Positions 8,266 to 28,665 of a stretch of DNA of 64,000 bases are shown here, in pieces. The notes beneath the pieces were generated by a model, which made no database searches, was not told the DNA's origin, and saw only the letters and a list, made by a program, of their open reading frames with translations. Position 1 is the stretch's first letter. Each line of letters opens with the position of its first letter. Origin of the DNA: Pontibacter sp. G13 (GTDB taxonomy: Bacteria; Bacteroidota; Bacteroidia; J057); contig NZ_CP134696.1 of NCBI RefSeq assembly GCF_031851795.1, positions 2,155,001-2,219,000 of the forward strand, in the 5' to 3' direction. The position numbers and the translations under genes were made by a program.

Positions 8266-9570
8266 TTACTCCGTTTGGACATCCACCAATTTGAGAAAAT
8301 GATGGAAAATCCTCGCTAGCACAGACTGCTCTCTCGTAATAACCTTGCAATTGCCGATCATGCCCGGGCGGTACGCAAGAGGTTGATTCTGATGGGTAAT
8401 CAACTCATCGCCCAATTCCACCTCCACATGATAGGTCCGATTTTCAGTATCGGGAACCTGTCCAAGCTTGACCACTTTGCCAGTCAAATGACCATACTCC
8501 TCGAAAGGATAGTCTACCACTTGAATATGTACCGCATTCCCAAGCTTGATTTTGCCATAACGATCAGCACTCACCGCCAGGTGGGCGACATAGCCCTTGG
8601 CCACAGGCACAATGGAGTACACAGCGGTACCCGGATCGAGATGCTGCCCTACAGCAAATGGCTGCATCTCGGCCACTGTGCCCGCGATTGGAGATTCAAC
8701 CCAATAGGCTTTTCGCCAATGCTTGAGCTCATTCTTCAATTGCATGATAGCGGCAGACAGGTTATTCCCAAACACTCGCTCTTGCTCCTCCATTTCTTGG
8801 TTCAGTTCCACGATCAACTGACCGAGTTCCTTGAGATTGAGGCGCTCTGACAGGATACTTTTCTCCAGGGACTCCACGGCTTGTTCCTTGGCGAGCAACG
8901 TGTTTTGTTCCTTCAGGAAAGCCAATTCAGCGATTACGCCTTCTCGATACAATTGCTCCTGAACTTCGAAGGTGTGCCGGGCATTGGCCAGTGCTTTTTG
9001 ATCCAGTACCCATTGTCGCTCGGAAACCTCGATCATATCCGCCAACAGTAACCGCTTGGATCGCTGGAAGTCAATCTCCTGCTGTGCCCGGGCATCTATT
9101 TTCCATACATGATAATCCAGACACAGCTGACGAATCTCCAAATATCGGTTCTGCAATTCTCCAAGCACCAATCCTTCATCCAAAAACGCGGGCAGACGAT
9201 CGGGATGCTTCTGAAATTCGTCCAGATCTGGGATCAGATTCATGAGATATTCGAAGCCCTCCGCGGTCAGTTCACTTTCAATCTCCGCGAGTTTCTGCCC
9301 AGCGGAAACTTGTTCACCTTCCTTCACAAGCAATGCTGCCAACTTTCCTCCACTTGGAGTCTGCGTCTGGATAGCTGGCTCGGAGGTATGTACAGCTCCT
9401 TCCGCTTGGATGATATCTGGATAGCGGATAACCCAGCCCAGCAACAACACCAGCACAATCATCCCCACAAAAAGATTACCCCCAGAGTTCAGGAGCCAAT
9501 GCGAAGGAGGTGTGAGAAGCGATTGGACCTCCTCAGATCTCAGTTCGATATCTGCTAGTTTGATCGGCAT
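8266..9570 (-). CDS. HlyD-type membrane-fusion / periplasmic adaptor protein of peptide exporter
   Basis: A 434-residue adaptor that would link the inner-membrane ABC exporter encoded just upstream to an outer-membrane channel. It has a short cytoplasmic N-terminus, one membrane segment (about residues 31-49, FVGMIVLVLLLGWVI), a half-lipoyl domain (GGKLAALLVKEGEQVSAGQKLAEI), a long helical hairpin of about 200 residues rich in Glu, Gln and Leu, the second half-lipoyl segment (SPIAGTVAEM with GQHLDPGTAVYSIVP) and a C-terminal beta-barrel domain. It starts 3 bases after the exporter stop codon, so the two are translated from one mRNA. Last gene of the cassette; downstream lies repeat DNA without a recognisable terminator. 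Confidence 0.92.
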   Translation of the reverse strand: MPIKLADIELRSEEVQSLLTPPSHWLLNSGGNLFVGMIVLVLLLGWVIRYPDIIQAEGAVHTSEPAIQTQTPSGGKLAALLVKEGEQVSAGQKLAEIESELTAEGFEYLMNLIPDLDEFQKHPDRLPAFLDEGLVLGELQNRYLEIRQLCLDYHVWKIDARAQQEIDFQRSKRLLLADMIEVSERQWVLDQKALANARHTFEVQEQLYREGVIAELAFLKEQNTLLAKEQAVESLEKSILSERLNLKELGQLIVELNQEMEEQERVFGNNLSAAIMQLKNELKHWRKAYWVESPIAGTVAEMQPFAVGQHLDPGTAVYSIVPVAKGYVAHLAVSADRYGKIKLGNAVHIQVVDYPFEEYGHLTGKVVKLGQVPDTENRTYHVEVELGDELITHQNQPLAYRPGMIGNCKVITREQSVLARIFHHFLKLVDVQTE

Positions 9571-9573
9571 GGG

Positions 9574-11766
9574 CTAAAGTTGAAGTTGATTTTTGACCAA
9601 ATTGAAATAGCTACCTTCCAGCGCCAAAAGCGCATCATGCGTTCCCTGCTCGACGATTTTGCCTTGATTGAGTACCACAATTTGATCAGCATTCCGGACC
9701 GTACTCAACCGATGAGCAATCACCACCACAGTCCTCCCCCGGAAGAAATGCTGAAGATTTTCCATGATGATGCGCTCATTTTCGGAATCCAAGGCGGAAG
9801 TGGCCTCATCAAAAAACAGATACTGTGGTTGTCGGTAAATGGCCCTCGCGATCAAAATTCGCTGCTTCTGGCCGGTACTAAGTCCTAGGCCCTCATTGCC
9901 GATCTTGGTATTGTAACTTCTGGGAAGTTGCTCGATGAAGGATTTGATGTTGGCCATTTCTACCGCATGCGCCAATCGGGCCTTGTCGATCGAGGTATCA
10001 TCCACGGCGATATTCCGCGCGACGGTATCGTGAAAGAGGTATCCTTCCTGCATTACAGAGCCACAATTGGCCCGCCATTGCCTCGGAGAAATCCACTGAA
10101 AATCCTGCTCCCCAAGCTTGATTGAGCCCTCCGATTGGCGGTAAAATTTTAAGAGCAGCTTCATCAAGGTCGTTTTCCCACTCCCACTGGCCCCTACAAT
10201 GGCAGTGACCTTCTGGGCCGGAATGGTCAAGTTCAGATGGTCCAGCACAAATTGATCGGAGCCATCATATCTAAATGCCAAGTCCTGAAGATGAATATCT
10301 GCCTGCCCGTGGATCTGTTCCCCATCGGTTTCCTCGCCCGTCCATTCATCGGATTTGTCATGGATTTCCGATAGACGCTCCAAGCTGATCTGAGCATCTT
10401 GAACCGAAGTGATAAACCCAAAAAGTTGTCCGATTGGCCCATTTAGCTGCCCGATGATATACTGGATGGCGAGCATCATCCCCAGGGTGATTTCACCAGA
10501 GACGACCAGAGTAGCAGACAAGACCGAGATGAGGATATTTTTGAGGTGATCGATGAATTGCGCCCCGACGCCCTGCAATTGTTCCAATCTCAGCGATCGG
10601 ACGGCAATCTTGAACAGCCGCACTTGGATGAATTCCCAAGCCCAACGCATGGATCGCTCGGCATTGTGCAACTTGATCTCCTGCATGCCATTCACCAGCT
10701 CGATCACCTTGCTCTGTTCCTTGGAGATCTGGGCAAATCGCTGATGATCGATCTTCTTGCGAGCCTTGAGGAAAAAAGCAATCCATCCGAGATAGCAGGC
10801 ACTCCCAACTACAAACACCCAAAAAATGGGCATGCTATAAATGGCCAGCACCGTCCCGAATACCAAGAGATTCACCAAACTGAATAGCGTGTTGAGGGAT
10901 GCATTGGTGAGTAATTGCTCGATCCTCCGATGGTCATTGATCCGCTGCAGCAAATCCCCCGTGATCCTACTATCGAAAAACCCAATCGGTAGCCGCATCA
11001 GCTTGATGAAGAAATCCGAGATCAGAGAAATATTGAGTCTCGTGCTGACGTGCAGCAAGATCCATGAGCGCGTGATCTCAATGACCATTTTCCCGATGAA
11101 GAGCATCACCTGTGCAAGCAACACCAGATAGATAAAGGAGATATTCTGCTGCTGAATCCCGATATCCACCATTCCTTGAGTCAAGAACGGGACGATAAAT
11201 TGCAACATACTCCCCGCGAAAAGCCCAAGTGCCAATTGGCCCATAAGTCGGCGATATGGGCGTAGATACCCCAACAAATCCCACATTCCTTTACGGGACT
11301 CCTCCTCCCATTCAAGCTCGTGAAAAGTAGGGGTAGGCTCCAGCATCAGAGCGATTCCTTCTTGGGCTTCGATCGTGGCATTGGCCCCCAGCCATCGTTC
11401 CATAAATTCCGCGGAAGAATAGGTCACCAAACCCGCACTAGGATCAGATACATAGACCTGTCCTCGCTTGATTTGGTACACAACCACAAAGTGATTCCCC
11501 TCCCAATGCACGATACATGGCATCAACGCTTCCTTGCTCAGTTCCTCAAAACTCATTCGAAGCGCCAAAGTCCGAAACCCCATCCCTTCAGCCGCATCAG
11601 CCAAATTCAGGAGATTAGAGCCCGATCGAGTGGTTTCCGTTCGGTTGCGGATCTCTTCAAGGGAGATCGTTTGCCCATGATATTGGGCAACGATTTTGAG
11701 ACAAGAAGGGCCGCAATCCTTCAAGTCTGGCTGACGAAACTGTGGAAATGATCGCATGATAGCCAT
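9574..11766 (-). CDS. Peptidase-containing ABC exporter (C39 bacteriocin-type processing transporter)
   Basis: This 730-residue protein would cut the leader of double-glycine peptides and export the core. N-terminal C39 cysteine protease domain (about 1-135): oxyanion Gln12, catalytic Cys18 in KDCGPSCL, His92 in HWEGNHFVVVY and Asp108 in VSDPSAG are all present. A six-helix ABC transmembrane domain follows (about 165-450). The ATPase domain has Walker A GASGSGKTT (about 520-530), signature LSTGQKQR, Walker B YLFFDEATSALD and H-loop VVVIAHRLSTV. The ATG overlaps the stop of the upstream lipoprotein gene by one base (TAATG), indicating coupled translation. Substrates are very probably the two cysteine-rich peptides of the same cassette. 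Confidence 0.96.
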   Translation of the reverse strand: MAIMRSFPQFRQPDLKDCGPSCLKIVAQYHGQTISLEEIRNRTETTRSGSNLLNLADAAEGMGFRTLALRMSFEELSKEALMPCIVHWEGNHFVVVYQIKRGQVYVSDPSAGLVTYSSAEFMERWLGANATIEAQEGIALMLEPTPTFHELEWEEESRKGMWDLLGYLRPYRRLMGQLALGLFAGSMLQFIVPFLTQGMVDIGIQQQNISFIYLVLLAQVMLFIGKMVIEITRSWILLHVSTRLNISLISDFFIKLMRLPIGFFDSRITGDLLQRINDHRRIEQLLTNASLNTLFSLVNLLVFGTVLAIYSMPIFWVFVVGSACYLGWIAFFLKARKKIDHQRFAQISKEQSKVIELVNGMQEIKLHNAERSMRWAWEFIQVRLFKIAVRSLRLEQLQGVGAQFIDHLKNILISVLSATLVVSGEITLGMMLAIQYIIGQLNGPIGQLFGFITSVQDAQISLERLSEIHDKSDEWTGEETDGEQIHGQADIHLQDLAFRYDGSDQFVLDHLNLTIPAQKVTAIVGASGSGKTTLMKLLLKFYRQSEGSIKLGEQDFQWISPRQWRANCGSVMQEGYLFHDTVARNIAVDDTSIDKARLAHAVEMANIKSFIEQLPRSYNTKIGNEGLGLSTGQKQRILIARAIYRQPQYLFFDEATSALDSENERIIMENLQHFFRGRTVVVIAHRLSTVRNADQIVVLNQGKIVEQGTHDALLALEGSYFNLVKNQLQL

Positions 11767-13262
11767 TATCGAAGGTGCTGGATTTCGGTCTGGATGGCGG
11801 TAGCCAAGGCTGGGTCCGACGGTTTGGGAGCGTGCGAATAAATCAATGATCCGTCTCCTCCAATCAGCAAGTATCTCGGAATGTAGTCGATGCCCAATTC
11901 GGAGACGAATGAATTGTCTGATTCAGAAATCGAACGATAATGCTCTTCCCATCCTTGAAGGCCGATCCGCTGTGAAGTCCGTTCCCAAACTTGATCTGTG
12001 AGGTCGAAGGAAATGTAGATAAACGCGACAGGATCTCCCTCAAACTGGTCTCGTATGGTAGCCGAAGCAGGCATTTCTTTCAGGCAAGGTGCGCAGGTGC
12101 TCGACCAGAAATCCAGAAAGATGACCTGCCCCTGATACTTAGCCAATAGGTCCGCAAGCAGAGCGGTATCCCCCGATTCGTCCACGAGTGACAAAGATTC
12201 TGCCCATACGGGGTCCCAATCCTGACCGCTGGCCCAATCCTTTCCATTCAGTTGATTTAGCTTTTCGGAATAGCGCACTACCTCGGCTGAAGTCTCAGTC
12301 CTTTTGATTCCTTCGAATATCAACTTCAACAAATGATACTTGGCATCGACTGACCATTCCTCGGAAACAAAAAACAAGTCAAATAGCTCAGTAGAGCTCA
12401 TCTTTGGTTGTCCATCCAATTTTCTTTTTCTCCTCACTCCCGTTGAATAGCTATAGAGCATTTGGTGAAATGCATGAGTTTGGGGAGCCTCTTTGGGCAA
12501 ATTGAGCACTTCTATGCCGAGCGCCAATCGTTGTTGGGTAAATTCCATTCGCAGTGAATCAAACCGCAATTGCTGCCTCCGGAATGCATAAATCGAGGGG
12601 TCTATCAATTTTCTTTCCATGACTGAATCCAGAATGCTCCGTTCCTTCTTCCATTCACGGCTTGCTTGGGGATACACTTCTTGGTCATGGGCCATCAGAA
12701 AATTGGCGGACTTCACCTTTGTTCGATTATGGAGAAAATAATTGAGTTGAAAACTTTCATGTCCGATTCGGGTGGTTGCTGGCATCGAATCCCGACCGAC
12801 CCTCTCATCCACCCAGAATGCCCAATTCAAGTCGTAGGGCAACGTTTCGCGATTAAGAATGGCCACTTGTGGCTTCAATCCATCGTAAGTGATTCGCGCT
12901 GTATCTCCATTTTTCAGCCAATAGGGAATCACCCGCAAGACTTCATAATGCAGCGATACCTCCTGCCATTCTGAAGAAGTGGAAATGACCAGCGTATCAT
13001 ACGAGGCTTCTTTGGGAACATGGTGCATGTTCAAATCCCCCAGGGCATCGTACCAGATAACGGATCGCTTGGGGGTCATTCCTGACTTGCTGGGATGAGA
13101 ACTGATTTGATATGAATCAGAAATATTGGGATGATCGAAAATGAGCACAATTTCTCCGGGCAATGAAGGAGATTGAGCCCAAAGCGTAGACCGGTCCAAA
13201 CAACTAGACACCAGACCAAGTGAAAGCACAATCGGTAAAGACAACAAGAAAAAACGATTCAT
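11766..13262 (-). CDS. Thioredoxin-fold lipoprotein of the peptide cassette (paralogue 2)
   Basis: A 498-residue protein beginning with a lipoprotein signal (LGLVSSC, lipid-bearing Cys at residue 21). The N-terminal ~350 residues match no domain I recognise but are shared with the protein at 13670-15154: an edge strand (EIVLIF), a PYDLNWAF-VDE-VGRDSMPA block and a helical middle. The C-terminal ~130 residues are a TlpA-like thioredoxin fold with active site C390-A-P-C393 in FLDFWSSTCAPCLKEMP and the cis-proline of YIPRYLL. It would sit in the periplasm, tethered to a membrane. Its role may be to reduce, isomerise or hold the exported cysteine-rich peptides. Translationally coupled to the exporter gene. 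Confidence 0.85.
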   Translation of the reverse strand: MNRFFLLSLPIVLSLGLVSSCLDRSTLWAQSPSLPGEIVLIFDHPNISDSYQISSHPSKSGMTPKRSVIWYDALGDLNMHHVPKEASYDTLVISTSSEWQEVSLHYEVLRVIPYWLKNGDTARITYDGLKPQVAILNRETLPYDLNWAFWVDERVGRDSMPATTRIGHESFQLNYFLHNRTKVKSANFLMAHDQEVYPQASREWKKERSILDSVMERKLIDPSIYAFRRQQLRFDSLRMEFTQQRLALGIEVLNLPKEAPQTHAFHQMLYSYSTGVRRKRKLDGQPKMSSTELFDLFFVSEEWSVDAKYHLLKLIFEGIKRTETSAEVVRYSEKLNQLNGKDWASGQDWDPVWAESLSLVDESGDTALLADLLAKYQGQVIFLDFWSSTCAPCLKEMPASATIRDQFEGDPVAFIYISFDLTDQVWERTSQRIGLQGWEEHYRSISESDNSFVSELGIDYIPRYLLIGGDGSLIYSHAPKPSDPALATAIQTEIQHLR

Positions 13263-13298
13263 GAGCTAAGGATTAAATTAACGTGTCCAAAAACTAGA

Positions 13299-13319
13299 CA
13301 GGGGCCCAAAAGGCCCCTG
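13299..13319 (-). terminator. Hairpin between precursor peptide gene and lipoprotein gene
   Basis: A perfect 8-bp stem (CAGGGGCC / GGCCCCTG) with a 5-base loop lies 14 bases after the precursor stop, followed on the minus strand by TCTAG and a T run of five. Within an operon this may act as a partial terminator or an mRNA 3' stabiliser that raises precursor over downstream gene expression. Confidence 0.65.
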
Positions 13320-13333
13320 ATTGTCATCAAGAC

Positions 13334-13573
13334 TTAGCAATAAGAGGCTGAACCTCCATTTGATGCGCAGCTTTCACAGCACCAATAGGCTACATTGCCA
13401 TCTACCGAAAGAAGATCAGCAGTGCCTTCAGCTTCCTCCTGGCTCAGGTTGCAGGCGACACCACCGTGCGGCAAAAGGATGCCACAGGTACCCATCAATC
13501 CACCGGAGACCAATTTCATCTCTAATGGAGACAGTTTTTGAGTTTGCTTTTTCAGCAATTGATCGAACGACAT
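13334..13573 (-). CDS. Double-glycine-leader, cysteine-rich peptide precursor B
   Basis: A 79-residue precursor. Residues 1-25 are a leader ending LVSGG, typical of substrates of C39 peptidase transporters (hydrophobic residues at L7, L14, L17, M19 and V22, Gly24-Gly25). Cleavage would release a 54-residue peptide with six cysteines: one in GTCG, one in VACN, a WCCESC cluster with three, and a C-terminal SYC. All six align with those of the precursor at 15212-15457, along with the P-x-G, S-x-EEAE and NGG motifs. No lanthionine, radical-SAM or YcaO enzyme is near, so disulfide bonds are the expected modification. The start at 13573 is preferred; an in-frame ATG 75 bases upstream exists (see the upstream element). 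Resembles the Bacteroidota GG-leader natural-product precursors; activity is unknown. Confidence 0.88.
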   Translation of the reverse strand: MSFDQLLKKQTQKLSPLEMKLVSGGLMGTCGILLPHGGVACNLSQEEAEGTADLLSVDGNVAYWCCESCASNGGSASYC

Positions 13574-13632
13574 ATTCAAGAAATTACAAGTAACTCCTAC
13601 TCTATCAGGGCTTTTCGGATTCCGCCCTTGAC
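13574..13632 (-). promoter_or_regulatory. Conserved element upstream of precursor B
   Basis: About 60 bases directly upstream of the start are nearly the same as those upstream of the other precursor (15458-15516). The invariant core on the minus strand includes AGAGTAGGAGTTACT and the hairpin-capable GGGCGGA-n-TCCGAAAAGCCC. Identity is higher than in the coding sequences and covers codon third positions, so DNA- or RNA-level selection (promoter, operator or 5' leader) is more likely than translation. Confidence 0.6.
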
Positions 13633-13669
13633 CTCGAAAGGAGGCCAAATTGATGCAGGCTATATTAGA

Positions 13670-15154
13670 TCAGGGCGTAGCCCGTGAGACTTCCATCAGG
13701 ATATCAGCAGTGGAATGCGCAGAAGGGCTTGGTGCTTGGGCATATTTCAAGTGTCCGATCCCGTCGAAAATCAGGTACCGCGGTAAGACCCGCACCTCCA
13801 GTGCTTCCAAGAAGGGATTGTCATCAAGATTGAGGATGCGGTACTGATGGGCGGCATGCACGACCCCGGTTTTCTCGGCCATCTTCTTCCAGGCAGATGG
13901 ATTGGGATCGTAGGCGAGGTAGACGATTTCCACAGGTTCGGCTTCGAGGGATTTTTTCAGCTTATGAGAGGAAGGCATCTCATGAATACAAGGGGTGCAG
14001 GTGCTGGACCAGAAATCCAGATAAACCGCCTTCCCGGAGAGTTCGGTCATGACTTCATCCAGTCTGACGGTATCTCCGGCTCCATTTTCCAAGAGGGTCG
14101 AGGAGAAGAGCGTTTGGATATGCGCGGGGTCATACGCTTTGAATTTGGCCAGTTGGCCACTGCTTGCTTCCAGCTTCCCTGAGTATTCCGCAATGGTCTC
14201 CTGAGATTCCGATAGTTTGATCTTTTCAAAAAGCATGTCGAGCAACTCAATCCTGGCAGAACCTAGGAATTGGTCGGAGACGATCACCTCATCAAATGCT
14301 TTCATCCAGTCCACCGAAGTACCCTCCTCAAACGCTGTCCAGTAAAATCGCATGGCCCGCATAGACAGCGCATGGCGAAATTGACGTGACCTGGCGATTT
14401 CTGGAGAATAATCCCGAAAAAGGTTCCCAGATTCCGCCTCGCCCAAACGCCACGATATCGCCTGCCGCTCATATTGGCATTGTTGCCGGTACAATTCGGC
14501 ATATTCCTCAGAAAGACTGCCCTCGGCTACCAATCGATCGATCAATGCCCTTTCTCGATCCAGTTCCTTCATCGCTGTATCCGTGATCATCTCCACGACA
14601 TACTGGATTCGATTCATGCCATTTTGGGTCTCCAGACACTTGGGACAAAACTGGTATTTGTATATATAGAAAACAGGGCTCATATATTGATCCTTGGCGG
14701 GGATGCTATCCCGACCGATCAGTGTATCCACCGCAAAATCCCAATTCAGGTCATAGGGCTTGATCGCCCGATTGCGGATTTCCGCTGTGGGTTTGTAACC
14801 TTCATACCGGAGGTCGAGGGTATCTCCGGGATACACCCAGAAAGAGAGCTCCCGCTGGATGAAGTACCTTAGATTCACCTGCATCGGAATGGTGGTAGGG
14901 TCGATGGACAAGGTATCTCGCCAAGATTCATCCTTGGAGATGAACCGAAGCTCTGTAGGATTTGGGGACCAAGTGATGACCCTTGCATTTCTATCCAGTG
15001 CCTTGGGGCGACTGGGAGGAATCGAAAATCGAGTGGCTACCTCCACATCATGGAAAATGAGCGTAATGGGACCGGAGGACTCCTCAGGCAGGTTTTGGCC
15101 TTGTAGGCAGCCCATCAGCAGGAGTATCCAAAGGAATTGTACTTGTTTTGCCAT
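13670..15154 (-). CDS. Thioredoxin-fold lipoprotein of the peptide cassette (paralogue 1)
   Basis: A 494-residue protein with a lipoprotein signal (ILLLMGC, lipid Cys at about residue 16). The unassigned N-terminal region is homologous to that of the protein at 11766-13262 (PITLIFHDVEV, PYDLNWDFAVDTLIGRDSIPA). The C-terminal thioredoxin fold has active site C386-T-P-C389 in YLDFWSSTCTPCIHEMP and the cis-proline of VLPRYLI. It is preceded by one precursor gene and followed by the other, so the locus reads precursor-lipoprotein, precursor-lipoprotein, which suggests duplication of a two-gene module. A dedicated pairing of each lipoprotein with its neighbouring peptide is an inference. Confidence 0.85.
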   Translation of the reverse strand: MAKQVQFLWILLLMGCLQGQNLPEESSGPITLIFHDVEVATRFSIPPSRPKALDRNARVITWSPNPTELRFISKDESWRDTLSIDPTTIPMQVNLRYFIQRELSFWVYPGDTLDLRYEGYKPTAEIRNRAIKPYDLNWDFAVDTLIGRDSIPAKDQYMSPVFYIYKYQFCPKCLETQNGMNRIQYVVEMITDTAMKELDRERALIDRLVAEGSLSEEYAELYRQQCQYERQAISWRLGEAESGNLFRDYSPEIARSRQFRHALSMRAMRFYWTAFEEGTSVDWMKAFDEVIVSDQFLGSARIELLDMLFEKIKLSESQETIAEYSGKLEASSGQLAKFKAYDPAHIQTLFSSTLLENGAGDTVRLDEVMTELSGKAVYLDFWSSTCTPCIHEMPSSHKLKKSLEAEPVEIVYLAYDPNPSAWKKMAEKTGVVHAAHQYRILNLDDNPFLEALEVRVLPRYLIFDGIGHLKYAQAPSPSAHSTADILMEVSRATP

Positions 15155-15178
15155 GTTTGTAGGATTGAGGTAGAAATC

Positions 15179-15200
15179 GGGTCTCCAATCCTGAAGACCC
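15179..15200 (-). terminator. Hairpin between precursor A and lipoprotein gene
   Basis: GGGTCT (15179-15184) pairs with AGACCC (15195-15200) across a 10-base loop, 11 bases after the stop of precursor A. It is weaker than the hairpin behind precursor B and lacks a clear T run, but occupies the same place in the second module. Confidence 0.45.
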
Positions 15201-15211
15201 TACCTAGATGA

Positions 15212-15457
15212 TTAGCAGTAACTTGTGTTTCCTCCGTTTTGGCTGCAGCTATCACAGCACCACCATACTCCGTTCTCAGGGCCTCCAAAAATGGCTGCAT
15301 GACTTTCAGCCTCCTCTCGGCTCATATCACATACTGCCAATCCACTGGGCATCAGCAGGCCACATGTGCCAGTATCATAGAATCCCCCCGTAACTCGCTG
15401 CATCTCAATTTTGGACAGCTGTTGGTCCTGCTTGTTCAGCAATTGATCGAATGTCAT
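15212..15457 (-). CDS. Double-glycine-leader, cysteine-rich peptide precursor A
   Basis: An 81-residue precursor. The 25-residue leader ends RVTGG; cleavage leaves a 56-residue core beginning FYDTGTCG. Six cysteines are at the same relative places as in precursor B: GTCG, AVCD, WCCDSC and the terminal SYC. Conserved neighbours are the P-x-G before the second Cys, S-x-EEAE, and NGG before the last. About half the residues are identical to precursor B. The leader (MTFDQLLNKQDQQLSKIEMQ...) aligns without gaps, so the two genes are duplicates. Upstream DNA shares the 60-base element. It lies between the VKOR-type oxidase gene and the first thioredoxin lipoprotein gene. Confidence 0.88.
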   Translation of the reverse strand: MTFDQLLNKQDQQLSKIEMQRVTGGFYDTGTCGLLMPSGLAVCDMSREEAESHAAIFGGPENGVWWCCDSCSQNGGNTSYC

Positions 15458-15516
15458 TGTTATGTAATTACCAGTAACTCCTACTCTGTTGGGGCTTTTC
15501 GGAATCCGCCCATGAC
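15458..15516 (-). promoter_or_regulatory. Conserved element upstream of precursor A
   Basis: Second copy of the element described at 13574-13632. It carries the same AGAGTAGGAGTTACT core and GGGCGGA-n-TCCGAAAAGCCC segment at the same distance from the start codon. The remaining ~190 bases back to the oxidase gene hold only a small palindrome (CTGTCA / TGACAG, 15648-15665). Confidence 0.6.
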
Positions 15517-15711
15517 TGCGAAAGGCAATCATCTCATCTCAGGAAATCGGTTGAGTCGGACATACATATCGCTACCACAAGGCTATTGGGTAGCCTGAGG
15601 ATGAATGTCATCTCGGGATCTGAAAAATGGAGATGACGATGACTAGGCTGTCAAAAGCATGACAGCATCAAATGTCGCAGGAATCAGAAGTGGAGAGATC
15701 AGGAGAAATGC

Positions 15712-17313
15712 CTATACGAGCAGATAAGGCAAATCCTTCATCGTGTATCCCGTGGGAAGAGAGCGGTATTGATACAGGATTTTGGGGGTAGAACTCACGC
15801 GGTATCGCTTGCCCCATTCGTTCTGCAAACGCAGTCTTTCGGTGGCAGCGGACAATTCTTCAGTTGTCAGCGGAATGCGGTCAGCCCATGCTTGCACCCT
15901 TGCGTAGTCATGCTGATAGAAGGCAGCACTCACCCGTTCGTATTCTGTTTGAGGAAGCTTCTGGGCAAGAGCGATCATCTTCAAGGCAGATTGATAGGAT
16001 GTGCTATCTTCATCCGAATCACTCATGAAGATTTCCTCAATCCGGATGTCTGTCCTTCCAGCCAACAACTCGTGTTTGTCCCGGTGGAGCTTTTGGCACG
16101 GCCCACAATTCGGATTGACCACGAGGGTGATGGTATGGGTTCCAGAGGGATTCCCAGAAAGAATCGGTTGGGCGTCCTGCGTATCTACTGGCTTGTAAGC
16201 AGATTGAAGCAGCTCCAATACTTGTCGGTCATATTTGATGCGGTTGAGCGCTGGAAGCTCTGACTGACTCTGACTCCATCCTGTCAAAATGGGTTTGAGT
16301 CCTCCCCAAAGTGCCGCCATCCCCCAAACCGCTCCTGCGAAAACCGCCAGTCCAAAGCTACTTGGCCACGTCAATCCCTGAAGGCTGATCATCCATAACG
16401 CATAGCCCGCCTGAACCAACAGAACGCCTTGGACAAACAGGCACAACTTGCACCACTGCTTGGCGATGAAACCTTGGTAGTAAATCGAATATACCGGATA
16501 AACGCCCCCAAGGACAGCCATGATCTGAAGGATGGGAAAGGACACTGATTGGGGCATCCAAGCACTCCAAAGCAACATCAGGAGGAAGTAGCCAAATCCG
16601 ATTTCTCCCCAACTGAGGTTGCCGATGGCCAGTGCCGCAGGGGATTCCAGGATTTGTTGGCAATTGATCTTGCGCTTCTTGTCGGTGGCGCAGAATCGTT
16701 GGATGATCTGGTGATGCGGGCTGAAACGCTGGAGCATGAGGGGTACCGCCAGCAACAATCCGACCGCATGGGTTCCCATCCATCCCCACACAAGGGGTGA
16801 AGGCCATTGACCATGTGCTTGCCAGCCTCCCCAAATCAACGTGATGATCGTCATCAGAATGAGGAAGGGAATCCGCATGCGGTTGAGGATGCCTACACTC
16901 AGATTGCGTGTATAATCCTTTTCCTGAACTTGGGCTTCTGTATCGGCCACCAGAACTACCCCGCTCCAAGCCTTGAGAAATTCCGCGTGGGAGAGGACCT
17001 CCTCCTGCTCTGCACCTCGGAGAAGTGTAACAGAATCGCCAGACATCTCTGTCACCACCCCATAACCTTCCTGAGGAAATTGGAGGTGCGCCAAGAAAGG
17101 TCGTGGAAGTTCTTCCTGTAATTGCCGGAAGTCTGGCCGCATCGCCATGTTTCGAATCCCCAACCGATTGAGCCCATGATGTAGGGACAACATCGAGGGA
17201 AAATCCGGATGCTTGGAGAGCCAATCCAAGGTAACCTGCGTGTACCTAGTCCCAAGTTTATCCAGAAACTGGGAAAAGGTAGATTGGATAAAGTTTACAG
17301 AAGCGTAATTCAT
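15712..17313 (-). CDS. VKOR-family disulfide oxidase with C39-like N-domain and C-terminal thioredoxin fold
   Basis: A 533-residue membrane protein, three modules in order. Residues 1-125 resemble a C39 peptidase domain but lack the catalytic Cys and His, so they may only bind leader peptides. Residues about 145-350 contain some six membrane helices and a VKOR domain: loop cysteines C208 and C218 and the quinone-side C288-K-L-C291. Residues about 385-533 are a DsbA/thioredoxin-like domain with C403-G-P-C406 and the cis-Pro of SSTPKIL. VKOR enzymes oxidise a partner thioredoxin and pass electrons to quinone, so this protein could form disulfides in exported peptides. It is the first gene of the cassette. 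The fused architecture is one I associate with Bacteroidota peptide clusters; its exact role here is inferred. Confidence 0.88.
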   Translation of the reverse strand: MNYASVNFIQSTFSQFLDKLGTRYTQVTLDWLSKHPDFPSMLSLHHGLNRLGIRNMAMRPDFRQLQEELPRPFLAHLQFPQEGYGVVTEMSGDSVTLLRGAEQEEVLSHAEFLKAWSGVVLVADTEAQVQEKDYTRNLSVGILNRMRIPFLILMTIITLIWGGWQAHGQWPSPLVWGWMGTHAVGLLLAVPLMLQRFSPHHQIIQRFCATDKKRKINCQQILESPAALAIGNLSWGEIGFGYFLLMLLWSAWMPQSVSFPILQIMAVLGGVYPVYSIYYQGFIAKQWCKLCLFVQGVLLVQAGYALWMISLQGLTWPSSFGLAVFAGAVWGMAALWGGLKPILTGWSQSQSELPALNRIKYDRQVLELLQSAYKPVDTQDAQPILSGNPSGTHTITLVVNPNCGPCQKLHRDKHELLAGRTDIRIEEIFMSDSDEDSTSYQSALKMIALAQKLPQTEYERVSAAFYQHDYARVQAWADRIPLTTEELSAATERLRLQNEWGKRYRVSSTPKILYQYRSLPTGYTMKDLPYLLV

Positions 17314-22506: not shown

Positions 22507-23268
22507 TTACTCCGGCACCTTGGTCACCCACGGTCCTTTGCGATCATCTCCCTTCAAATGCTCCTTCACGGAATCAGCCTGACCTTTTTGGGGAAATGGA
22601 CCAATGAATACCTTGAAGACTTCCTGCCCCTTTTGATCATAGGATTGGATGAATACAGGCACATCGTATTTCACCCCGATTCGCAGCGATTCCTTGGAAG
22701 CGCGTTTTTCTGATTCGTAGGCACCCATCTGAATGGCATATCCTTCCTTTGGGGCATCTGGTGCAGGCGGTTCCTCGGGTGAAGGAGTCGGCGTGCCTGA
22801 GCGTTCCGGCAACTGACTTCCCATGGATTCGGACTGGGTATCCGGCAGCTGGGCCAGTTCATCCAGCAGTGCTTCCGCCGGCCAATATCCTGTCATTCGA
22901 AAAGCCAATTCGCCATCGGCCCCGAAAATGAACATCGTGGGAAATAGGTCTACATTCAATTCCTTGACGAGATCGTCCTTGGAGCCGCGCATTTTCATTT
23001 CGGCATCGATCCCATAAAACAAGGACCTTTCTCCGAGCCACTCCTTCAGACGAGGATCTTTCAGCGTCTCGGTTTCCATCTGCTTGCAAGGCTCACACCA
23101 GTCTGTGTAGACATAGATCACCGCCGGCAAAGCCTGTGATTTCGCTTCCGCAAGAATGCCGTCCAATCCTCCTTGGTAGGGTTTCCAGTCAGGTTGTGCC
23201 CATACGGACCGAGGGAAAAGGATCAGTACGAATCCCAGCAGTGCCCAGAATCTTTCATGTGTAAGCAT
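22507..23268 (-). CDS. Periplasmic thioredoxin-fold protein fused to a SPOR domain
   Basis: A 253-residue protein with signal peptide (FWALLGFVLILFPRSVWAQ, cleavage near residue 25). A thioredoxin fold (about 30-140) carries C-E-P-C in YTDWCEPCKQM and the cis-Pro of DLFPTMFIF, similar to DsbD-gamma/thioredoxin-like proteins. A Pro/Ser/Glu-rich linker (about 145-175) leads to a SPOR domain (about 176-240: YAIQMGAYESEKRA, VFKVFIGPFPQKGQAD). SPOR domains bind denuded peptidoglycan glycans, usually at division septa. The fusion would place a thiol-redox protein at the cell wall. Function beyond that is inference. Confidence 0.87.
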   Translation of the reverse strand: MLTHERFWALLGFVLILFPRSVWAQPDWKPYQGGLDGILAEAKSQALPAVIYVYTDWCEPCKQMETETLKDPRLKEWLGERSLFYGIDAEMKMRGSKDDLVKELNVDLFPTMFIFGADGELAFRMTGYWPAEALLDELAQLPDTQSESMGSQLPERSGTPTPSPEEPPAPDAPKEGYAIQMGAYESEKRASKESLRIGVKYDVPVFIQSYDQKGQEVFKVFIGPFPQKGQADSVKEHLKGDDRKGPWVTKVPE

Positions 23269-26909: not shown

Positions 26910-27099
26910 TAGATATCGCAAGTTTAGGGTCCAAGAAATTGGGCGTTTAGTCAAAAGTGAATGGAAAAATCGGTGTCAGACAGGGCCAAGTTTAATTTGA
27001 CTTTATCTAAGGTTCTAATTCGAATTGGTACTTTTCGCAACCTTTTTTATTTTCCTGTGGCTGCTTGCAGAACCGCTACTGATCAATTAATTGTTACTG

Positions 27100-28665
27100 A
27101 TGACCGAATCTATTCAAGAACTTCGACAAGCTGGTAAACTTGAAGAGGCGCTTGCATTGGCAAACGAGTTCCATCAAACCCACCCAGAGGACCCGGAAAG
27201 CAGCCGAGAACTCGCTTGGGTACACTATGGATTTGCCAAACAAGCCGCTAAACAAACCGACATCCCAGCCTTTCATGAGCATGTAGATGCCATTCTTGGT
27301 CTCGACATGGAGGGGGAAGGATTGTTGGGAAACTCACTGGCTTGGCAGGTGCATCGGATTGCCAAATCGCTAATGGCGCAAAAACCGGCACCTGTTCGTG
27401 AAGTTGTCCGGCTGCTCGAGAAGGTGAAGAGCTTCCCCTTCGACATCGAGCAGGATATCATGGCTTACGTGATGATGCTGAGGTTGGCCTTGAAAGTCAA
27501 GGACCGCTACCCAAAAATCATGGATTTCATCGAATGGTGGAATTTGGAGAATCTTCCTGAATCTGAGTACGAACCCTTCACTACCAAACAAGGTCGTCAG
27601 ATGATGGCGCTCGCTGAGCGTTCTTACATCACCTACGCCAAACAGGTGGTAGACTACTCGCAGGTAGACTACGAAGATGCCAAGGCCAAAATTCAGGTCT
27701 TCCTTCCTAAGTTGGATGCGTTGATCGAGAAGCAGCCTGACTACATCTACCCGCCACAGTTCCGGATGCAGCTCTTGCTGGCCAATGGCGATCTGGATCA
27801 GGGTATTCCACTCATTTTGAACTACATCCGCAAGCGACCCAACGAAAACTGGGCTTGGTTTGCGATGGCAGAAGCATTCTACCACGAGAAGCTTTACGAT
27901 CAGGCCAATGCCTGCTATGTCAAAGCTTTGGTTGCACGCCCTGCACTTCCGATTCAACTGAGAATCAAGGAGCAGTTGTGCAAAATCATGGTAGAACAGA
28001 ACCAGTACGAGGAAGCGAAGACTGAAATTCTCGACCTTGAAGCGATCACTGGACGCAACCACATGGACCTCAAGCCTGAGATTGAAGCTTATACCAAGGA
28101 ACCTTGGTACGCCGAAGCTCAAGGACATCGCGACAACCGCAACTTCTACCGCAATCAGGTATTCATCGCCGCAGATCTGCTCTACTCTGATATTCCAGAG
28201 AAGCCAGCAGTCATCACGCATGTGGATATCAAGAAGAAGCGATTCTGGTTCCGCGTCAGCAAGGAGATTACGGGATCTGCAACCTTCAACCAGATCCGAT
28301 ACCGGGTGATTCCTGGGGACTTCATTGCTGTAAGAATGAAGAAAGCCATTTCCCGACACAGTGGAGATGAAATGTACAAAGTACTGACCATCAACGAGAC
28401 AGACAAAATGCCCGACGAAATCACGCGTTTCTTCCGCGGCATGATCTATCTCCGCCCAGGCCAGAACTTTGGTTTTGTCGATCGCGACATTTTCATTCCC
28501 CCTCAGTTGGTGGAAGACAACGAACTGATCGGCGGTCAGCAGGTAGCTGGTCTTGCCGTCATGGAATACGACCGCAAACGCGAGCGCTGGAACTGGAAAG
28601 CCGTGAGATTGGACACTTCCAATCACGACACCTCCAGCCGCTTTGTAGGCGACCATCGCCATTAA
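27100..28665 (+). CDS. TPR-like helical repeat protein with C-terminal OB-fold (cold-shock/S1-like) region
   Basis: A 521-residue cytoplasmic protein. Residues about 1-330 are helical repeats of TPR type (LRQAGKLEEALALANEFHQTHPEDPES; NWAWFAMAEAFYHEKLYDQANACY). Residues about 370-500 are strand-rich: a first unit (AVITHVDIKKKRFWFRVS, GDFIAVRM) and a second one reminiscent of a cold-shock domain (RGMIYLRPGQNFGFVDRDIFIPPQLV). I associate this arrangement with the poorly characterised DUF7017/S1-CSD-like family, from memory and unverified. RNA or nucleic-acid binding is inferred. The ATG at 27100 is preferred to the TTG at 27091. Terminator follows. Confidence 0.75.
   Translation: MTESIQELRQAGKLEEALALANEFHQTHPEDPESSRELAWVHYGFAKQAAKQTDIPAFHEHVDAILGLDMEGEGLLGNSLAWQVHRIAKSLMAQKPAPVREVVRLLEKVKSFPFDIEQDIMAYVMMLRLALKVKDRYPKIMDFIEWWNLENLPESEYEPFTTKQGRQMMALAERSYITYAKQVVDYSQVDYEDAKAKIQVFLPKLDALIEKQPDYIYPPQFRMQLLLANGDLDQGIPLILNYIRKRPNENWAWFAMAEAFYHEKLYDQANACYVKALVARPALPIQLRIKEQLCKIMVEQNQYEEAKTEILDLEAITGRNHMDLKPEIEAYTKEPWYAEAQGHRDNRNFYRNQVFIAADLLYSDIPEKPAVITHVDIKKKRFWFRVSKEITGSATFNQIRYRVIPGDFIAVRMKKAISRHSGDEMYKVLTINETDKMPDEITRFFRGMIYLRPGQNFGFVDRDIFIPPQLVEDNELIGGQQVAGLAVMEYDRKRERWNWKAVRLDTSNHDTSSRFVGDHRH

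Follow-up and report, generated by a model that had tools for sequence, protein, structure and literature searches.

How could two small, cysteine-rich peptides be exported and oxidised by one gene cluster, and what might they be made for? These questions are raised by a seven-gene cassette at positions 8266–17313 of a 64,000-nucleotide (nt) stretch of the Pontibacter sp. G13 genome (NCBI RefSeq assembly GCF_031851795.1, contig NZ_CP134696.1, positions 2,155,001 to 2,219,000; hereafter the window). The gene content of the cassette, the even cysteine numbers of related peptides and the recurrence of the gene combination in other Bacteroidota suggest that it probably encodes a dedicated oxidative-folding and export pathway for two related three-disulfide peptides, and bacteriocin-like antagonism, by analogy with described systems, would be the most likely role of these peptides.

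Organization of the cassette

All seven genes lie on the minus strand and are transcribed in the order VKOR fusion, precursor 1, thioredoxin lipoprotein, precursor 2, second thioredoxin lipoprotein, C39 ATP-binding cassette (ABC) exporter and HlyD adaptor. The first gene (15712–17313) encodes a 533-amino-acid (aa) membrane protein, a proposed peptide oxidase, in which Pfam places an N-terminal Peptidase_C39 domain (38.7 bits, cut-off 22), a VKOR domain (46.9 bits, cut-off 27.5) and a thioredoxin match that falls short of the cut-off (23.7 versus 27). Its sequence contains CATDKKRKINC and CKLC, which we take to be the active cysteine pairs of VKOR. Precursor 1 (15212–15457, 81 aa, predicted core of 56 aa) and precursor 2 (13334–13573, 79 aa, predicted core of 54 aa) both carry a double glycine (GG) at residues 24–25 and six cysteines after it. 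Each is followed by a putative lipoprotein with a lipobox recognised by eye, a CxPC site and a C-terminal thioredoxin/Redoxin domain (Pfam), namely a TlpA/ResA-like protein with CTPC after precursor 1 (13670–15154) and a protein with CAPC after precursor 2 (11766–13262). The exporter (9574–11766) combines Peptidase_C39, ABC_membrane and ABC_tran domains (Pfam), with the C39 residues readable as DCGPSC, NHF and DPS, and the last gene (8266–9570) encodes a membrane-fusion adaptor of the HlyD type (HlyD_3, E-value 9.9e-18, Pfam).

These coordinates and domains agree with an earlier, sequence-only reading of the same DNA, which had listed seven genes on one strand with two GG precursors, two thioredoxin lipoproteins, an exporter and an adaptor. 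It had not listed the N-terminal C39-like domain of the VKOR protein. As it had also stated, no lanthionine, radical SAM, YcaO or other cyclase domain occurs in the seven proteins (for the exporter, among the best 25 of 198 families). Besides the fusion and the exporter, the open reading frame (ORF) list and Pfam revealed no further membrane gene. The sole PADLOC match was the ATPase part of the exporter, and PHROGs gave no match.

The VKOR fusion and its C39-like domain

Judging from its residues, the C39-like domain of the fusion probably does not act as a C39-type protease. In alignments that include window, plasmid and GTDB loci, some of them near-identical, the catalytic cysteine is present in 45/46 exporters versus 3/65 fusions, the histidine in 46/46 versus 0/65, and the aspartate in 46/46 versus 15/65; the window fusion has F, Q and R at these positions. 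Because the catalytic residues have been lost, the domain probably binds a leader or the exporter rather than cutting. HlyB also carries a C39-like domain, and by analogy the domain of the fusion may dock the leader or the exporter. Stand-alone C39-like mini-proteins were also seen near GG precursors (L132, 9592–9858, 11629–11910 and 13605–13898; L129, 13528–13707), Algoriphagus boritolerans being one example.

The fusion is the only VKOR in the assembly, which is 98.1% complete and gave no match to DsbB. A search of solved structures and a single-protein GTDB scan with the fusion yielded no match and no relative, respectively.

The precursor peptides and their core family

The two precursor units look duplicated, because a 145-nt stretch comprising the 5′ region and leader precedes each core and is 75% identical between them. 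After GG cleavage, the computed monoisotopic masses of the oxidised peptides would be 5919.35 and 5419.26 Da, some 6.05 Da below those of the reduced forms. Precursor 1 was found in its own genome alone among 60 genomes searched and gave chance matches only against solved structures; a plasmid search with precursor 2 returned no match. No fold was drawn from the low-confidence AlphaFold model of precursor 2 (predicted local distance difference test, pLDDT, 67.8), and a fold search with it returned nothing at E ≤ 0.001.

The core pattern GTCG...C...WCCxSC...SYC recurs with differing leaders in other families, including Bacteroides. A four-row profile (rows from the own genome, G307 and G109) matched 15/395 phylum genomes at E ≤ 0.01; outside the profile rows, strong matches came from G375 (5.6e-18), G249 (3.1e-15), G147 (7.5e-11) and G366 (1.2e-8, with internal stops), and the remaining eight genomes ranged from 7.5e-5 to 0.0098. 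A GTDB scan gave 14 loci. Those in Bacteroides belong to B. rodentium, B. muris, a metagenome-assembled genome (MAG) and two uncultured members that are near-identical to each other (L136, L137). The others come from Membranihabitans marinus, from Algoriphagus boritolerans, whose peptides are those of G249, and from MAGs, namely a near-identical pair of HGW-Bacteroidetes (L129, L130) and one each of Cyclobacteriaceae, Alistipes, Bacteroidales, Chitinophagales and an unplaced Bacteroidetes. The core profile had no match in viral contigs. In 13 aligned rows (L134, L139 and L141 omitted), C30, WCC at 64–66, C69 and S77 are invariant, G28, T29, G31, C41, A48, S68, Y78 and C79 are nearly so, and leaders vary more than cores.

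Cysteine numbers were surveyed around 46 loci that carry relatives of the fusion, within 6 kb and on both strands, under a rule requiring a starting methionine, a GG/GS/GA leader, at least four cysteines after it, 40–110 aa, and a position not mostly within a long ORF. The rule kept 90 GG/Cys-rich ORFs, all of which lie on the cassette strand and none on its opposite; 7 further ORFs, whose strand was not recorded, were dropped for overlap with long ORFs. The cores contained 4 cysteines in 20 cases, 6 in 52, 7 in 3, 8 in 13 and 10 in 2, so that 87/90 have an even count, towards which the four-cysteine threshold gives no bias. Such even counts therefore fit disulfides, as pairing predicts.

The second and sixth cysteines (C2 and C6) are jointly absent in 4/23 core members (L062, L121, the first copy of L137 and L141). 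Scored by script, the both/neither/one/one table reads 17/4/1/1 (p 0.0027), and with L139 corrected by hand 18/4/1/0 (p 5.6e-4), the rows being related and the p-values a guide only; in L134, C6 is missing and an additional cysteine stands beside C1. Because C2 and C6 are lost together, a C2–C6 disulfide in the core is suggested, and C1, C3, C4 and C5 would make two further disulfides. In these counts, as in the next-gene, tree and DUF805b-model counts below, the near-duplicate or overlapping L118, L122, L130 and L136 were dropped.

The thioredoxin lipoprotein partner

In a structural model of the first lipoprotein (pLDDT 75), a beta-sandwich at the N terminus is followed by a helical part and by a domain that resembles ResA/TlpA. 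CxPC and the cis-proline are invariant in 14 aligned partners, which show the features of the TlpA/ResA thioredoxin fold. The next large gene after a core member is a thioredoxin ORF in 14 of 23 cases and the VKOR fusion in one, and in two no such gene lies within 900 nt; the 14 GTDB core loci had been chosen by the peptide alone, the other loci by VKOR or by profile. DUF5128 beta-propeller proteins were observed in the lipoprotein's place after GG precursors in L054, L068, L119, L043 and L069.

In a quick partner tree with many long branches (45 thioredoxin ORFs, 13 core-labelled; L121, a weaker core relative, labelled as other), peptide type required 3 label changes versus a mean of 11.5 in shuffles, none of 500 being as low. 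Eleven of the 13 core-labelled partners fall in one clade (Shimodaira–Hasegawa-like approximate likelihood ratio test support 91), with L047 and L134 outside. The exporter tree, as a control, required 5 changes for 7 rows versus 6.7 in shuffles (15/500). From these label changes, the peptide goes with the partner more than with the exporter, four Bacteroides rows in this comparison being closely related.

These observations raise the question whether the six-cysteine core and its own thioredoxin lipoprotein form a two-gene module, leader-swapped into various Bacteroidota cassettes, in which the lipoprotein would act as a redox immunity or activation partner switching the disulfides on and off. 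We regard this as a doubtful extension; no description of such on/off control by a paired lipoprotein was found in the literature examined.

Distribution across Bacteroidota

The sequence-only reading had proposed asking whether the VKOR, lipoprotein and exporter genes co-occur. In a sample of 394 phylum genomes, a VKOR search (PF07884) matched 93, own genome included. From the matches with an open frame of at least 482 aa, 51 regions were fetched, excluding the own locus and G328:C45, whose VKOR frame of 544 aa is interrupted by a stop. Five regions lacked a strong relative of the window fusion (L044, L050, L090, L092, L093), and the other 46 hold 48 full-length relatives in 38 genomes besides the own one. 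A C39 exporter lies on the same strand in 34/46 and exporter plus HlyD in 30/46, with several of the 16 incomplete loci truncated where the contig or the fetched region ends (L048, L049, L057, L065, L088 and L089 among them); in L067 the exporter is on the opposite strand. The answer is positive, the exporter accompanying the fusion in most loci and the lipoprotein in fewer, as given below. Arrays of at least 12 different GG/Cys-rich precursors around one VKOR/exporter cassette were seen in L059 and L062.

Eight plasmid records match the fusion, and the six regions opened (Emticicia twice, Spirosoma, Hymenobacter, Parabacteroides and Aureibacter) all have a C39 exporter and HlyD downstream. 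Glycosyltransferases replace the thioredoxin in the Spirosoma cassette, and a LanC-like gene and two transferase genes are present in addition in the Parabacteroides cassette, so that other modifications can be combined with the core machinery. The cassette of pEMTOL01 (L037) adjoins the annotated anti-phage genes kwaA/kwaB. Closer to home, the fusion was restricted to the own genome among 13 genomes of the family, as was VKOR among 22 of the order, and lipoprotein P0006 at E ≤ 1e-20 among 296 of the phylum. This sparseness would fit gain of the cassette by transfer.

Proposed pathway and rival explanations

It is reasonable to suggest that the exporter's intact C39 domain would cut the 25-residue GG leader during transport into the periplasm, where the VKOR/thioredoxin fusion would introduce disulfides, presumably passing electrons to quinone as its family does. 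The C39-like domain without catalytic residues probably places the oxidase at the export site by binding the leader or exporter. The neighbouring thioredoxin lipoprotein, whose lineage tracks peptide type, could serve as disulfide isomerase or reductase for its own peptide, a function that appears likelier for it than that of an immunity protein. HlyD and a TolC-type channel presumably encoded elsewhere would then carry the peptide out. The sequence-only reading had taken oxidative folding after export to be the modification. Co-occurrence of the genes, even cysteine numbers in 87/90 cores, the lack of a DsbB match and the single VKOR speak for this, and the LanC-like and glycosyltransferase genes of some related cassettes speak against its exclusiveness; oxidation need not be the sole modification in all related cassettes.

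Several results weigh against the proposed pathway. The partner is not universal, since a thioredoxin ORF of the lipoprotein's kind occurs in 14/46 fusion loci, and a DUF5128 beta-propeller protein (L054 twice, L068, L119) or a roughly 390-aa protein that Pfam does not match (L132) follows 4/23 and 2/23 core members, respectively. The VKOR tree, a second control, required 5 changes for 9 rows versus 8.7 in shuffles (0/500); because core-type loci cluster on it too, shared ancestry explains part of the peptide–partner link. Thioredoxins of the ResA/TlpA type with CxPC usually act as reductants. Leaving out ORFs that overlap long genes also takes some force from the strand control. The core is uncommon, a 13-row profile matching 5/395 class genomes at E ≤ 0.001, own included. 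TIGR04149, by name a model of radical SAM-modified, ribosomally synthesised and post-translationally modified peptides, matches 8/13 aligned core members at E ≤ 0.01, although it spans 43 positions only. Finally, no immunity gene was identified for the cassette.

In another explanation, which we consider unlikely, each peptide is a toxin and the adjacent lipoprotein is its immunity partner, binding or reducing it at the envelope of the producer, with the beta-propeller stand-in doing so by binding. It would account for the many loci in which a partner comes immediately after the precursor, for partner lineages that track peptide type, for two unrelated folds at one position, and for window partners that are 28% identical to each other versus 52% for the two peptides. 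Binding alone, however, would not require an invariant CxPC and cis-proline, and the long-array cassettes L059 and L062 lack such a partner after their precursors (in a survey that dropped L118, L130 and L136). Furthermore, the regions of the bacteroidetocins, described Bacteroidota peptides, are reported to have no obvious immunity gene and their producers to self-inhibit (PMC6671954).

That the peptides are signals or cell-surface components instead of toxins appears rather improbable. The conservation of non-cysteine core residues across distant families, including Bacteroides, would suit such a role, as would the acidic window cores (charge about −6) compared with the somewhat basic bacteroidetocins (PMC6671954), but Pfam recognised no regulator or sensor among the seven proteins, and certain GG peptides in related cassettes hit models whose label, by annotation only, is bacteriocin-like. 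Far less credible is a peptide that binds metal or carries redox equivalents and is kept reduced by the thioredoxins: a CCxxC motif and a weak, sub-threshold TRASH match to precursor 2 (E 0.0086, 16.7 bits, cut-off 27) point that way, whereas the even cysteine numbers and a VKOR oxidase in the cluster fit disulfides better, and no metal-related domain was found by Pfam in the other cassette proteins.

If oxidative folding coupled to export is indeed what the cassette provides, a dedicated oxidase would explain how disulfide-rich peptides are made by bacteria without general disulfide machinery, which has been reported lacking in Bacteroides (Dutton et al. 2008, as cited in PMC6671954). The fusion loci, 46 in 38/394 sampled genomes, mark a pool of uncharacterised peptides, and the core family reaches Bacteroides, a genus open to genetics. 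Among the homologous loci, L133 and L137 have frames that look complete, whereas L131 has an interrupted exporter frame and L135 a short exporter/HlyD part. Specific, testable ideas on how export and oxidation could be coupled also come from the paired lipoprotein and from the inactive C39 domain on VKOR.

DUF805b elements and neighbouring features

The Rfam element DUF805b (RF02914) ends 20 nt before both precursor start codons, at 15478–15512 before precursor 1 (41.3 bits) and 13594–13628 before precursor 2 (45.3 bits; gathering score 35.6), both on the minus strand. The genome has five copies, of which the third (L150) precedes a GG-leader, lanthipeptide-like precursor and then a LanC-like gene, and the last two precede ORFs of 445 and 474 aa. 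Applied to 77 cassette loci at E ≤ 0.05, a sequence model from 34 elements gave 10 matches, each 19–24 nt before a GG precursor, among 144 precursors, four of the ten being in the training set (the window twice, L077 and L046 once each). Eight of the ten pass the Rfam gathering score, those of the Bacteroides loci L133 and L135 failing it, and in eight cassette loci, each of which has a core member, no Rfam match reached that score. Across 395 genomes the element occurs in 118 at E ≤ 0.001 (76 above cut-off), and the genes after the 34 elements are mixed. DUF805b was considered as a marker of these peptides and rejected; because it is general in the phylum with mixed downstream genes, it is regarded here as belonging to the cassette without marking it. 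We found no paper that describes what the element does.

A terminator-like hairpin (13299–13319, minus strand; 9 pairs, T-rich tail) separates precursor 2 from the second lipoprotein gene and could raise the precursor message above the downstream message. The folding z-score of 13263–13335 is −3.55, and hairpin-like terminators number 13 sites in the region versus 9.0 in shuffles. A few kb from the cassette, a thioredoxin-SPOR fusion protein is encoded at 22507–23268 (minus strand), and a protein of the TOTE conflict-system type, which carries DUF7017 and S1/CSD domains, at 27091–28665 (plus strand).

Comparison with known systems

The sequence-only reading had not recognised the six-cysteine peptide with paired lipoproteins as characterised. 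This holds for the core, of which no described homologue was found in the open-access literature, and less so for the architecture, which is widespread and has a characterised analogue in the bacteroidetocins (PMC6671954). No paper joining VKOR with GG peptides of Bacteroidota was found among the open-access papers listed, and the terms VKOR, thioredoxin, vitamin K, disulfide, TlpA and HlyD are absent from the main text of PMC10352776. Among 25 GG peptides of related cassettes, scanned at E ≤ 0.01, 9 match NF047798 (leader_Chryseo), 5 NF047792 (CCPGW) and 5 TIGR04149, whereas neither window precursor reaches the cut-off of any of the three models (TIGR04149 scores 13.4 bits against precursor 1, E 0.054, cut-off 25, and does not match precursor 2). 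Both precursors also lack YGNGVxC, the motif of class IIa, pediocin-like bacteriocins as given in PMC6671954.

VKOR-thioredoxin fusion proteins share with the window protein a VKOR domain followed by a thioredoxin-like domain, to which the window adds the N-terminal C39-like domain without catalytic residues and the genetic linkage to GG peptides. Plasmids pEMTOL01 and pEMTOL02 of Emticicia oligotrophica resemble the window in that a single run of genes encodes a VKOR fusion, small GG six-cysteine ORFs, a TlpA-family protein, a C39 exporter and HlyD, and differ from it in their peptide cores, an included TolC gene and their plasmid location, with units repeated on pEMTOL02.

Bacteroidetocins, proposed as class IIf bacteriocins, are GG-leader peptides with four cysteines in A and B and at least two in others, encoded with a C39 exporter, a thiol oxidoreductase and a protein with five transmembrane segments; they kill Bacteroidales, and reported for them are evidence of GG cleavage, a gel shift consistent with disulfides, and attenuated activity upon deletion of the oxidoreductase gene (PMC6671954). 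Measured against that description, the window has a leader of 25 aa versus 15–16 aa, acidic cores of 54 and 56 aa with six cysteines versus 42 aa, somewhat basic and four cysteines in bacteroidetocins A and B, and paired thioredoxin lipoproteins and HlyD, the five-segment gene being reported for bacteroidetocin regions. Because leader, core length and cysteine number disagree, the cassette is not filed as a bacteroidetocin system. Both nevertheless combine, in one Bacteroidota region, a cysteine-containing GG-leader peptide with a peptidase-containing ABC exporter, here 9574–11766, and with thiol oxidoreductase genes, here the VKOR fusion and two thioredoxins, a likeness in the presence of such genes.

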